64,000 nt of DNA. Origin: Alphaproteobacteria bacterium (lineage in GTDB: Bacteria; Pseudomonadota; Alphaproteobacteria; UBA8366; Aestuariispiraceae). The DNA lies in NCBI GenBank assembly GCA_033344895.1, contig JAWPMN010000001.1, forward strand, positions 3,852,001-3,916,000, written 5' to 3'. Below the pieces are notes generated by a model. That model ran no database searches. It was not told where the DNA came from and saw only the letters and a list, made by a program, of their open reading frames with translations. Below, piece by piece: positions 55,263 through 58,455 of this stretch (its first letter is position 1; the number at the start of each line of letters is the position of its first letter). The position numbers were made by a program, and so were the translations under genes.

Positions 55263-55697
55263 ATGCCCGTCGATATCGCTGTCCTGGCACGCGCTTCGGG
55301 ATTGCCGGCGTCGACATTGCGGTTTTATGAAGAAAAGGGGCTGATCGAATCCATCGGCCGCCGGGGCCTGCGAAGGGTGTTCGACGACGACACGCTGGAG
55401 CGCCTGTCTCTGATTGCCCTTGGTCGGATTGCCGGTTTCAGCCTGGATGAAATACGCGCCATGTTCGGGCCGGATGGGGCGCCTCGGATCGACCGCACCA
55501 GACTGTCCGACAGGGCCGACGAATTGGACAGGCACATTGAGGATCTGACGTCATTGCGCGACGGCCTGAGACACGCGGCGGCGTGCCCGGCACCGAACCA
55601 CATGGCCTGTCCGACATTCCGGCGGATGGTAAGGCGGGCCGGGGCCGCGCAGGCGCGCGGGCTGGACATGCCACGTGCAGGTCGCCCGACCTTCTGA
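55263..55697 (+). CDS. MerR family transcriptional regulator
   Basis: This 144-residue regulator has an N-terminal winged HTH (DIAVLARASGLPASTLRFYEE, then RRGLRRVFDDDTLERLSLIA), a coiled-coil dimer helix (about 80-110) and a short effector region ending CPAPNHMACPTFRRMV. Two cysteines there (CPAPNHMAC) could sense a metal, oxidant or thiol-reactive compound. It is divergent from the DUF2938 gene whose promoter carries a MerR-type operator. The inducer is not predictable. Confidence 0.88.
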   Translation: MPVDIAVLARASGLPASTLRFYEEKGLIESIGRRGLRRVFDDDTLERLSLIALGRIAGFSLDEIRAMFGPDGAPRIDRTRLSDRADELDRHIEDLTSLRDGLRHAAACPAPNHMACPTFRRMVRRAGAAQARGLDMPRAGRPTF

Positions 55698-55799: not shown

Positions 55800-56046
55800 G
55801 ACCCGCCCGAACCCCCTGTCCTTTCGACTGCGACAGCGATCGGGCACAATGTGCTACATCGGCATGAATTGGGCGAAGCAATGAATGCGGCGCATCGCGC
55901 CCGTGCCGAGGTTGCCAAGGCGCCACAGGACACCTTCTGCGGCGGCTACGCCGGATACTTCCGGGCTCCTGACGGCGATTGTGTGGAACCCCCAATTGCT
56001 GCCAGTGGAGCCTGATCCGAGATTGTTCGGCATCAATGGTGAACCG
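55800..56046 (+). pseudogene. Remnant of a VOC (glyoxalase-like) gene
   Basis: One frame reads IGHNVLHRHELGEAMNAAH, then APQDTFCGGYAGYFRAPDGD. This is the second half of a VOC/glyoxalase-fold protein (family pattern QDTFWGGYAGYFxDPDGH). The expected continuation VWNPQLLPVEPD follows in another frame, so there is a frameshift near 55978. The N-terminal half is missing. It lies beside the tRNA-Ser island and was probably broken during nearby rearrangement. Confidence 0.65.
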
Positions 56047-56067
56047 TGGGGCCATTCGGTGGTCAAA

Positions 56068-56125
56068 TGGCGGACAGGGTGGGATTCGAACCCACGTTAC
56101 GGTTTCCCGTACGCCGGTTTTCAAG
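56068..56125 (-). pseudogene. 3' half of a split tRNA-Ser(UGA) gene
   Basis: On the minus strand the sequence runs from anticodon loop CTTGAAA (56125-56119) through ACCGG, the long variable arm, T-arm GGGTTCGAATCCC, acceptor CCTGTCC, discriminator G and CCA (56070-56068). No 5' half precedes it. The matching 5' half (acceptor GGACAGG) is at 58353-58391, and the acceptor strands of the two halves pair perfectly. They therefore come from one gene cut at the anticodon loop. Confidence 0.88.
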
Positions 56126-56247
56126 TTTACAATCAATGAACTTTATACATCTTGGTTCTTTTCGATGTAACTGAAGTATTTTCAAAAATCAGTTTCTTGT
56201 CTTGACCGATAAGCCGTAGGAAAATATGCGTAGCTCTAGCACTGCTA

Positions 56248-56269
56248 CTTACGAATTGCTTACGGAGAC
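56248..56269. repeat. Two 11-bp direct repeats, probable integrase arm sites
   Basis: CTTACGAATTG and CTTACGGAGAC follow each other at an 11-bp period, directly upstream of the integrase relic and 120 bp from the left core. A related copy (CTTACGACTTG) lies near the right end at 58229-58239. This arrangement is typical of arm-type binding sites on both sides of an attachment core. Confidence 0.6.
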
Positions 56270-56273
56270 TGCC

Positions 56274-56405
56274 ATGAGCGGCAAACCGAATCGAGCAAAA
56301 CTCGCCAAAGGCTAGATGGATCGGATCAAAGCTAGGGCCAAGGTCGATTTCTATTGGGATGGCTGAGTGAAGCGGTTTGGCTTGAGAAGCACTCCTACCG
56401 GCAGC
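56274..56405 (+). pseudogene. Relic of a P4-type tyrosine integrase (N-terminal arm-binding domain)
   Basis: Starting at an ATG with GGAGA upstream, the frame reads MSGKPNRAKLAKG-stop-MDRIKARAKVDFYWDG-stop-VKRFGLRSTPTGS. The part KVDFYWDG..VKRFGLRSTPTGS matches the DUF4102 arm-binding domain of P4-like integrases (pattern FxWDxxLKGFGLRVxPxG). Two in-frame stops and loss of the catalytic part show that it is dead. No further integrase sequence is recognisable up to 56700. Confidence 0.68.
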
Positions 56406-56703
56406 CTAGCCGCATACAATCGTGACAAGATGTCGAGCATTGATCGAGCAAGTTTCCGACCGCCGCATCGGCGCACCTGGAGCTACTCTTCTCGATACAG
56501 CTGCCTCAGCTACTTTTGATTCATTGCAATTCCCACACGTGCCAACTGCGGATGCAGACGCCGATGACAAAAACGCCGTTCTCCCCGTGGCACGGCGCGG
56601 GGGCTGAGTCTTCTCCCTACCTTGCGCAACTGACGCTTGTAGATCGACAAGATTTACCTCAAAATTTCATGCACCGTAAACTTATGCAGCGGAGGGGATA
56701 GAC

Positions 56704-57453
56704 GTGGCCACTGAATTCAATTTGCCAGGCTCGTCTTTTGAAGAGATTCAAAAGATACTTAAGGGATACAACAATGCTCCGGAGCAAGCGTCTCTCGACC
56801 AGCTATCGAAACTGACAGGGCTTCACGGAACGGTAATCAGTAGGAACAACAAATTCCTCTCGGACATCGGACTCATCGCGGGTGGGATGAAAAAAACTGC
56901 GACCGAGTTGGGCAAGAAGCTCGGACGTGCCCTCGAACATAAGCAGATTGCCGATGCCGAAGGCTATTGGAAGGAGGCCGTTCAGACCAACGAAAAGGTT
57001 GCCGGACTTGTTACGACAGTGCGCATCAAAGACGGCATGACGGAAGGCGATTTCTCCGCACACGTGCTGTACGTCTCCGGCCAAAAGAACAACTCAGGAA
57101 ACAAGACCGGTGCTCGCTGTGTTGTTGATGTCTTGCTCGCCGCCAAACTACTTCAGGAGGAAAATGGTAAGCTGGTTGTGTCTTCGGCACCGGCGAAGGA
57201 GATATCCGAGGGGCTCAACCCCACTATTCCAGCAGCAACGCAACCGGGCGCATCGGATAACGGATATAGCAACGGAGTTGGGGCCCAATCGCCGCTTCCT
57301 CTACCATCCCTGCCGTCGGTTCCGCAGACGGGAGCCTTGACGCCGCAAATCGCAATCAACATTCAACTACACCTCCCGGAAACAGACAATGCAGAGGTGT
57401 ACGAGAAGCTGTTCAAAGCTCTACGCGAACACCTCCTTAGGCCGCAGGCGTGA
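56704..57453 (+). CDS. Winged-helix-like protein of island module (function unknown)
   Basis: This 249-residue cytoplasmic protein starts at GTG with GGAGGGG 6 nt upstream. Residues about 5-85 look like a winged-helix domain (LDQLSKLTGLHGTVISRNNK, then GMKKTATELGKKLGRALEHK). A second folded part (about 90-165) contains TVRIKDGMTEGDFSAHVLYV and TGARCVVDVLLAAKLL. A Pro/Ser-rich linker (about 180-215) leads to a conserved-looking tail, INIQLHLPETDNAEVYEKLF. The layout resembles DUF5343-type proteins, but I am not sure of the family. The HEPN-like gene starts 4 bp after its stop, so they act as a pair. Confidence 0.7.
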   Translation: MATEFNLPGSSFEEIQKILKGYNNAPEQASLDQLSKLTGLHGTVISRNNKFLSDIGLIAGGMKKTATELGKKLGRALEHKQIADAEGYWKEAVQTNEKVAGLVTTVRIKDGMTEGDFSAHVLYVSGQKNNSGNKTGARCVVDVLLAAKLLQEENGKLVVSSAPAKEISEGLNPTIPAATQPGASDNGYSNGVGAQSPLPLPSLPSVPQTGALTPQIAINIQLHLPETDNAEVYEKLFKALREHLLRPQA

Positions 57454-57456
57454 GCG

Positions 57457-57975
57457 ATGAGTTTGGAAGACTGGACTACGCGGGCAAGTAAGGCGCGCCG
57501 CGCGGCGCATCAAGCCTTGTCGAAGCACGAAAGCGCCGCCTCGCGTGTCGTACTGTTGGAGGATTTGACCAAAAGCTTGTCGGGCACACCCGTTGACGTG
57601 CAGGATTACTTCAGTGAAGCAATCGCGTGTCTCGAAGGTGAGTTATATCGATCGGGTATCGTACTTGCTTGGGCGGGACACTTCCACGTGTTCTCGGAGC
57701 GGTGCTATCAGAAGCATGAATCTGGCATTCGAGCCGCCCGCCCAAAGTGGACTTTCAAAGACCTGCCAGAGCTGAAAGAATCCGTTGCAGAATCCCACTT
57801 TCTTATCGTCGCCAAGGATGTGAAGTTTACGACCAAGGCCCAGCTTCGAATACTCGATGGGCAGCTATCTCTGCGAAATCAATGCGCTCATCCGACGCTC
57901 TACCGCCCGAGCATGAATGCCGCCATCGGGTACGTTGACGACATGATCCGGCAGACACTCTCATATATCCCGTGA
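57457..57975 (+). CDS. HEPN-like protein with Rx4H motif (putative RNase/toxin)
   Basis: This 172-residue all-helical protein carries R-NQCA-H (R140 to H145) in LSLRNQCAHPTLYR. Rx4-6H is the catalytic signature of HEPN ribonucleases found in toxins, Abi systems and CRISPR Csm6/Csx1. Helices around 46-85 (DVQDYFSEAIACLEGELY) and 120-165 fit the four-helix HEPN bundle. It is the second gene of the island pair. Together with a DNA-binding-like first protein this suggests a toxin-antitoxin or abortive-infection unit; that function is inferred, not shown. Confidence 0.68.
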   Translation: MSLEDWTTRASKARRAAHQALSKHESAASRVVLLEDLTKSLSGTPVDVQDYFSEAIACLEGELYRSGIVLAWAGHFHVFSERCYQKHESGIRAARPKWTFKDLPELKESVAESHFLIVAKDVKFTTKAQLRILDGQLSLRNQCAHPTLYRPSMNAAIGYVDDMIRQTLSYIP

Positions 57976-58127
57976 TCGTCCTTAGCAAAATTTAAGTCGC
58001 CCGAGGGTGGCATTCTTCATGCGTCACACGCCTTTGACACAAGGCATCCCAGCACTTCCGGAAAGGCAGACGTATTGGCCGGTATGCCCTCACAATCCCG
58101 CAGGAAGGCAAGTAAGGCTGGCAATAC

Positions 58128-58217
58128 TGGCGGAAGCGGTGGGATTCGAACCCACGAACGGGTTTCCCCGTTGCTGGTTTTCAAGACCAGTGCCTTCAAC
58201 CACTCGGCCACGCTTCC
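58128..58217 (-). tRNA. tRNA-Ser (anticodon UGA), intact copy inside the island
   Basis: This 90-nt gene includes encoded CCA. Acceptor strands GGAAGCG and CGCTTCC pair. Anticodon stem CTGGT/ACCAG encloses loop CTTGAAA (anticodon TGA), a long class II variable arm follows and the T-arm has GGGTTCGAATCCC. Its 5' portion (33 bp, 58179-58211) is identical to the 5' half of the split gene at 58353-58385. It lies about 135 bp from the right island border and probably supplies the UCA-reading tRNA that the split gene no longer makes. Confidence 0.96.
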
Positions 58218-58352
58218 GTCTTTTGCCGCTTACGACTTGCTTGTCAGTGAGAAAATACCTGAAAGCTGAGTCTGTATGGCGTACCTAGAACCCTCTGTAA
58301 AAAATAGCAATATTCTTGCTTCAAAATTGACTGCAGACTTTAGCGCTTAAGC

Positions 58353-58391
58353 TTTCAAGACCAGTGCCTTCAACCACTCGGCCACCTGTCC
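58353..58391 (-). pseudogene. 5' half of the split tRNA-Ser(UGA) gene
   Basis: On the minus strand it starts GGACAGG (58391-58385), runs through the D-arm (TGGCCGAGTGGTTGAAGGC) and ends with the anticodon loop CTTGAAA (58359-58353). Unrelated AT-rich sequence follows. The acceptor strand pairs with the 3' half at 56068-56125. The anticodon stem made by joining the halves would have one G-U pair, so the 5' half may have exchanged a few bases with the intact copy. Confidence 0.88.
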
Positions 58392-58455
58392 GCATGCCGT
58401 ATCGGGCGCGGGTGATTACCATCATTGCGCAGCGGCAAGCAAGTCCAAGCGGCTC

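Follow-up and report, generated by a model that had tools for sequence, protein, structure and literature searches.

Crossover in the anticodon loop is a standard way in which transfer RNA (tRNA) genes are used as integration sites, and the Islander collection contains 2,083 anticodon-centred islands according to the available text of PMC4383910 and PMC8371274. In the integrative and conjugative element (ICE) insertions of Pasteurellaceae such as P. multocida (ICEPmu1/ICEMh1 type), the target tRNA-Leu is disrupted at both ends and an intact copy at one ICE end replaces the broken gene, as stated in the accessible part of PMC6028734. According to the accessible part of PMC6861422, one disrupted and one full-length copy are accompanied by a third, disrupted copy that lies upstream of the full-length gene, but the same text takes a complete plus a partial tRNA to be the most frequent result. 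The accessible part of PMC7438473 reports a related ICE with one truncated and one intact tRNA copy. The last two readings could correspond to ordinary restoration of the target. Here, we analyzed an island of 2.2 kb in a stretch of 64,000 nucleotides (the window; contig JAWPMN010000001.1, positions 3,852,001 to 3,916,000) from an alphaproteobacterium of the Aestuariispiraceae. The locus is most likely the remnant of an integrative island of the tyrosine-integrase type, which severed the tRNA-Ser(UGA) gene of its host and carries a substitute for it.

The minus-strand host tRNA-Ser(UGA) gene was interrupted exactly at its 7-bp anticodon loop. The 3' half, reaching from the anticodon loop to CCA, was located at 56068-56125 and the 5' half at 58353-58391, both on the minus strand. 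The last 7 bp of the former (56119-56125, the attL-side core) and the first 7 bp of the latter (58353-58359, the attR-side core) were the same heptamer, TTTCAAG on the plus strand, corresponding to the anticodon loop and terminating each half; the spacing between the two core copies, equal to the insertion, was 2,234 bp. The acceptor strands of the two halves, GGACAGG and CCTGTCC, paired at seven of seven positions. These features agreed with the first-pass annotation of this DNA, which had noticed two tRNA-Ser halves with complementary acceptor stems and a shared 7-bp loop lying 2.2 kb apart. ARAGORN and Rfam (gathering threshold) applied to this part of the window detected an intact tRNA within the island and neither of the halves, and fusion of the flanks at one TTTCAAG gave a 90-nt tRNA-Ser(tga) cloverleaf in ARAGORN. 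The direct repeats at both junctions thus lie at a known crossover site of tRNA genes. The halves stay broken, and restoration of the target gene by a fragment carried on the attachment site of the element (attP), which is usual for tRNA islands, was not seen here.

A DNA search of 29 genomes including the own genome, with the right flank and the 5' half as the query, was followed by tRNA prediction and inspection. An intact 90-nt tRNA-Ser(tga) was present at the orthologous locus, beside the same EAL-domain gene, in all five same-genus genomes searched (G001-G005), and the tRNA was also intact in four further genomes of the same family. In the closest relative, G004, the match (81%) extended from the right flank into the core. 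The match on the left side comprised the tRNA half and 3 bp (61 bp, 95%) and resumed only at 55660, as the gene content beyond the tRNA differs there. The intact orthologue in the relatives and the cloverleaf of the fused halves together indicate that the two halves represent one gene and not a chance resemblance. The earlier view of a tRNA that the island breaks within its anticodon loop and does not rebuild was thereby confirmed. The host halves differed from G004 at a few positions, one of which produces a G-U pair within the anticodon stem and another a G.A mismatch within the variable arm; from the sequence comparison, these would fit a mild relaxation, although they are no proof of it.

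The island contained a complete tRNA-Ser(UGA) at 58128-58217 on the minus strand (ARAGORN and Rfam), having an acceptor stem (GGAAGCG/CGCTTCC) different from that of the host gene, as the first-pass annotation had stated. The Rfam tRNA search of the one-contig genome of 4.64 Mb identified 43 genes, all of which could be typed, and the serine anticodons among them were tga (that of the island), gct, gga and cga. This list is incomplete, since tRNA-Ile(GAU) was missing from it. When the genome was scanned independently with a pattern for 3' halves of the Ser(UGA) type, two places were found, those of the broken half and of the tRNA in the island, and DNA searches with the island and the 5'-half sequence agreed with this. 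As far as searched, the island tRNA is therefore the only intact tRNA-Ser(UGA) in the genome. Within these searches, we found neither a relative having the two halves with no island between them, nor other intact tRNA-Ser(UGA) genes, nor signs that the halves derive from different genes, and the intact bacterial attachment site (attB) was identified in the relatives as anticipated.

By the wobble rules, neither the GGA nor the CGA anticodon reads UCA. This codon was in use: nine host genes from the window, with 3,547 codons in total, contained it 13 times. As the only reader of UCA found, the tRNA-Ser(UGA) gene is probably essential, and this function now resides inside the island, whose tRNA is presumably expressed. 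The anticodon loops of the island and host tRNAs were identical. The T arm of the island tRNA resembled that of alphaproteobacterial relatives and not that of the tRNA in the Pseudomonas thermotolerans island described below, and the best matches within the class were 89-90%, naming no donor. The exact island tRNA gave no match in viral contigs, and when the whole island was searched as DNA against phages and plasmids, the matches listed (15 of 493 and 15 of 80 records, respectively) covered the island tRNA only. Records H1-H7, from Ruegeria/Silicibacter phages that we take to be N4-like, had a tRNA-Ser approximately 85% identical to the island tRNA.

Like the Islander-type tRNA islands (PMC4383910, available text), the arrangement targets a tRNA and has short direct repeats where crossover usually takes place, an intact empty site in relatives, a displaced 3' fragment and an integrase-like remnant. 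It differs from ordinary tRNA islands in that attP would not have rebuilt the tRNA fragment and a whole substitute gene was brought in. The anticodon-loop break at both ends and the intact copy inside are features in common with the Pasteurellaceae ICEs, which are known here from available descriptions that do not fully agree. Those elements are large, reside at tRNA-Leu in Gammaproteobacteria and carry resistance genes, with transfer shown for some in the accessible accounts, whereas the present one is a 2.2-kb remnant at tRNA-Ser(UGA) of an alphaproteobacterium. The first-pass annotation had not been aware of a described element class with this exact arrangement and had regarded tycheposons as the nearest idea; the Pasteurellaceae layout, as far as it is described in the available texts, is a reported precedent. 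Tycheposons also have a tRNA at the border, a tyrosine recombinase and cargo, but they are 4-200 kb in size compared with 2.2 kb here, where the integrase-like frame is broken, and the replacement of a split tRNA is not stated in the available part of PMC10872708. The accessible text of PMC9262613 provides no precedent for a layout of split halves with an intact copy, and those of PMC4908127 and PMC9897764 treat tRNA-borne elements and fragments with no such layout described. The layout is uncommon and seems to have a precedent, which most likely makes it one more form of an integration style already described, and the case in the window is an alphaproteobacterial one that involves tRNA-Ser, apparently in sole copy, and is probably immobile.

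The body of the island consisted of a left end (56126-56703; GC content 0.49, compared with 0.61 for the window), a two-gene cassette of open reading frames (ORFs) with a GC content of 0.54-0.55, the tRNA, and a right end, the 135 bp that separate the island tRNA from the host 5' half (58218-58352; GC content 0.415). The GC content of the island outside its tRNA ranged from 0.41 to 0.55, and that of the flanks was about 0.62. Apart from ORF1 and ORF2, there was no island ORF longer than 93 amino acids (aa), and neither conjugation genes nor an ICE core were present in the 2.2 kb. The left end harbored a stop-broken fragment (56274-56420, plus strand), reading away from attL, that resembled the N-terminus of tyrosine integrases with the arm-binding domain. 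The encoded peptide had two in-frame stops, and relatives possess long open frames whose N-termini it matched. With an expectation value (E) of up to 1, matches of the fragment were obtained in 28 of 59 genomes including the own genome, the best ones outside it having E of 2.4e-4 and 3.4e-4. Among 19 loci that were read, nine had an N-terminus of the type KLTKRTVDxLxPxEKDxFxWDxxLxGFGLRVxPTGRK by our own reading, and in a search with the fragment stretch alone these nine aligned to it with E of 0.001 to 2e-6; for the other 10 loci, the frames compared were unrelated ones. Two of the nine were tested in Pfam, and both were integrases with Arm-DNA-bind_3. Weak matches in plasmids (E of 0.3 and 4) were annotated as a site-specific integrase and an Arm DNA-binding domain, and the two phage records found at E of 4-5 were of no use. 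These alignments support the identification of the fragment as an integrase remnant, less firmly than the split site itself. The own genome (G000) contained eleven Phage_integrase matches, some of which lay within about 2.5 kb of the tRNA genes Ala-GGC, Gly-GCC, Glu-TTC and Met, suggesting other tRNA-borne elements.

We propose that a tyrosine integrase would have recombined the core TTTCAAG of attP with the anticodon loop of the host tRNA-Ser(UGA) gene, whose 7 bp are the same. As this attP would have carried no tRNA half, the host gene would have been severed and not rebuilt, and the decoding of UCA would have passed to the whole tRNA-Ser(UGA) of the island. The integrase and other contents of an element that may once have been larger would have been lost later, with the tRNA and the cassette retained. 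The island tRNA shares the orientation of the host gene, whose 5' half lies 135 bp upstream of it, so that transcription from the promoter of the host tRNA could drive it, probably by reading across the right end; alternatively, the island tRNA may use a promoter of its own. Because the fused halves fold, precise excision should heal the gene, and dependence on the island would exist only against imprecise deletion. Since the integrase is now a fragment, precise excision would need the enzyme in trans. After the integrase loss, the island was probably fixed and became immobile, and loss of its tRNA would probably be harmful. The first-pass annotation had held that loss of the island would be lethal if no other tRNA reads UCA codons, which is too broad, as precise excision regenerates a host tRNA able to form the cloverleaf.

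ORF1 (56704-57453, plus strand) encodes 249 aa and has the C-terminal motif of PDC-M34A, the DUF5343 partner of a candidate defence pair, and ORF2 (57457-57975, plus strand) encodes 172 aa of a possible HEPN ribonuclease-like partner with the motif RNQCAH, recognized by eye. The match of ORF1 to PDC-M34A (E of 1.6e-8) was confined to the C-terminal 34 residues (211-244), and the RNxxxH motif of ORF2 was common, by eye, to two distant relatives. The cassette thus resembles the PDC-M34 pair of PADLOC in the two-gene order, the M34A C-terminal motif in ORF1 and the HEPN-type motif in ORF2 seen by eye. In Pfam, ORF1 did not match DUF5343 and ORF2 did not match HEPN, and neither cassette protein gave a full-length match to M34A or M34B. 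The predicted structure of ORF1 (predicted local distance difference test score, pLDDT, of 60) had no match in the PDB at E of 0.001, and that of ORF2 (pLDDT of 46) was too poor for a search and was not used. A role in defence or abortive infection can be guessed from the family names. A full DUF5343 and HEPN_Swt1 pair (PDC-M34A/B) with the same plan as the cassette was observed in another genome of the class (G070; L033, 952-2177), and it shares the C-terminal motif of ORF1.

Relatives of ORF1 were found in three of 98 related genomes including the own genome, one of them only in the last 30 residues, and at three loci in the genome collection. Those of ORF2 were found in three of 398 genomes of the phylum, again with the own genome included (E up to 1e-6). 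Complete pairs were present in P. thermotolerans (L072) and in an alphaproteobacterial metagenome-assembled genome (G011/L073). Relative to the window, the aa identities of L072 were 84% (ORF1) and 94% (ORF2), and those of G011 were 64% (ORF1) and 66% (ORF2). The ratio of nonsynonymous to synonymous substitution rates (dN/dS) against L072 was 0.17 for ORF1 and 0.055 for ORF2, showing at the sequence level that the cassette has been under purifying selection between the window and L072; synonymous sites were saturated in the comparison with G011. No homologue of ORF1 was found in plasmids or phages, nor one of ORF2 in plasmids by protein search, and none of either was confirmed in viral contigs. 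In Methylovorus menthalis (L074, 10001-12500), a relative of ORF1 ended after about 148 residues and was followed by frames that by eye resembled HsdS and HsdR of type I restriction systems.

In all three complete pairs known, the cassette lay 3' of a tRNA-Ser gene in the same orientation, with the anticodons tga, tga and gga. Integration at tRNA genes could be the reason for this placement, the window and L072 not being independent cases. In P. thermotolerans, a 10.8-kb island at tRNA-Ser(UGA) (L072, 618-11425) ended in the two-gene cassette. Its integrase was complete (427 aa, with Arm-DNA-bind_3) and lay next to 14 bp that repeat the 3' end of the tRNA, and further frames of the island were by eye VapE/primase-like, resolvase-like and terminase-like. 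A blastn comparison of the window with L072 gave 82% in an alignment of 1,589 columns, which begins shortly ahead of ORF1 and extends as far as the 5' end of the tRNA. At both loci the two genes adjoin tRNA-Ser(UGA) with unchanged order and orientation, and the displaced tRNA 3' part, the integrase or integrase-like frame, the cassette and the tRNA follow in the same order; L072 differs from the window in having the complete integrase and further phage-like frames. In G011 (L062, 9587-11153), the cassette stood beside an intact tRNA-Ser(GGA) with no other recognized island genes, and local alignment revealed no repeated tRNA segment at the opposite side. A flanking frame of G011 is shared with the tRNA-Ser(GGA) locus of the own genome, and the tRNA of G011 therefore looks native. 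The idea that a HEPN nuclease cuts this same tRNA and that the copy on the island resists cleavage was dropped, as the anticodon loops are identical and the cassette also occurs beside native tRNAs.

Several observations weigh against an origin of the locus by integrase action in the anticodon loop. The tRNA of L072 is whole, with the crossover at its 3' end (14-bp repeat), and that of G011 is not split. The fragment at the left end is short, a Pfam scan of it was empty, and the relatives that identify it were chosen by the fragment itself, so their small E values are not independent. In addition, 15 integrase frames from the own and P. thermotolerans genomes (including one duplicate, with 4 of 18 loci giving no frame) matched it at chance level, the best E being 0.053. 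Neither an intact integrase nor a free attP was seen, and by eye the inferred attP arms had no clear likeness to attB. The inferred attP 18-mer had one match in viral contigs, which was about chance by our own estimate and was dropped; it overlapped the terminal part of a 298-aa frame that has phage-type frames as neighbors, at a locus without a tRNA. A consensus scan found no sigma-70-like promoter, which says little in this group. The first-pass annotation had proposed a search of other genomes for the layout; when a broken-half pattern was run on 385 genomes of the class, the own one included, it gave 13 matches in 12 genomes, only that of the window resembled a tRNA half by eye, and no second case emerged. 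This pattern misses halves followed by A or having other letters in the T loop or anticodon loop, and the rarity is therefore indicative only.

The 7-bp repeat might instead be the target-site duplication of a transposon, with the anticodon loop struck by chance and the tRNA as captured cargo. The shared sequence is indeed only 7 bp and the ends are otherwise unrelated to the tRNA, but no terminal inverted repeat between the left and right island ends was recognized by eye, ORF1 and ORF2, the only ORFs longer than 93 aa, had no Pfam transposase match, the duplication is exactly the 7-nt loop, a known site of tyrosine integrases, and an integrase-like fragment lies at the island end, all of which make this origin improbable. 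A self-splicing intron, or a split tRNA gene joined by trans-splicing, is less probable still. tRNA introns lie at the anticodon loop, the position of the break here; the insert nevertheless includes an entire tRNA together with two ORFs that lie on the opposite strand. Rfam gave five matches up to E of 1 over 56000-58450 (tRNA, a transfer-messenger RNA scrap and plastid untranslated-region families on tRNA letters) and no intron family, and with no intron RNA core found up to this E, the group I intron and the split tRNA were rejected.

The cassette and the tRNA may have been first joined in a donor by a 3'-end-specific island like L072 beside a native tRNA-Ser(UGA), a second, anticodon-loop-specific element then moving both as a block. 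The similarity with L072 is colinear from the cassette to the tRNA, both tRNAs end in CGCTTCCGCCA, and the stretch between ORF2 and the tRNA retains a weak but present similarity (reached by 5 of 500 shuffles), whereas the T arm of the island tRNA is like that of alphaproteobacterial relatives and unlike that of L072, and no donor was found beyond the class matches of 89-90%. We regard this as a serious possibility at somewhat below even odds, and it is a refinement of the proposed origin rather than an alternative to it. The first-pass annotation had also seen the tRNA as an addiction-like device, in which the island is selected through its hold on UCA decoding. The island tRNA being the sole intact tRNA-Ser(UGA) found, the use of UCA in the window genes, and the preservation of the tRNA while the integrase-like frame decayed all speak for this view, of which the dependence against imprecise loss stood. 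Dependence against precise excision did not, as excision regenerates a foldable tRNA-Ser(UGA) and an active element would not be addictive to such loss; the lock-in of today can have arisen as a side effect of decay, and selection for addiction is rather doubtful.

The preferred reading, an integrase-made remnant that replaced the tRNA of its host, has consequences for how such islands are recognized. A layout of two broken halves and a whole copy with another acceptor stem could escape finders that rely on a restored tRNA and a fragment. It also suggests the replacement of a core translation gene by a copy from a mobile element, and a little-known two-gene cassette was placed beside tRNA-Ser genes in three genomes. 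More tentatively, the severing of an essential single-copy tRNA gene with provision of a whole replacement may be a recurrent, independently evolved strategy, seen in the tRNA-Leu ICEs of Pasteurellaceae and at tRNA-Ser here, in which the tRNA would anchor nearby defence cargo after decay of the integrase and so shield it from deletion. The locus is a clean case for asking whether a replacement tRNA anchors the cargo of an island. If this is true, the reading of one codon by the host would have become permanently dependent on foreign DNA.

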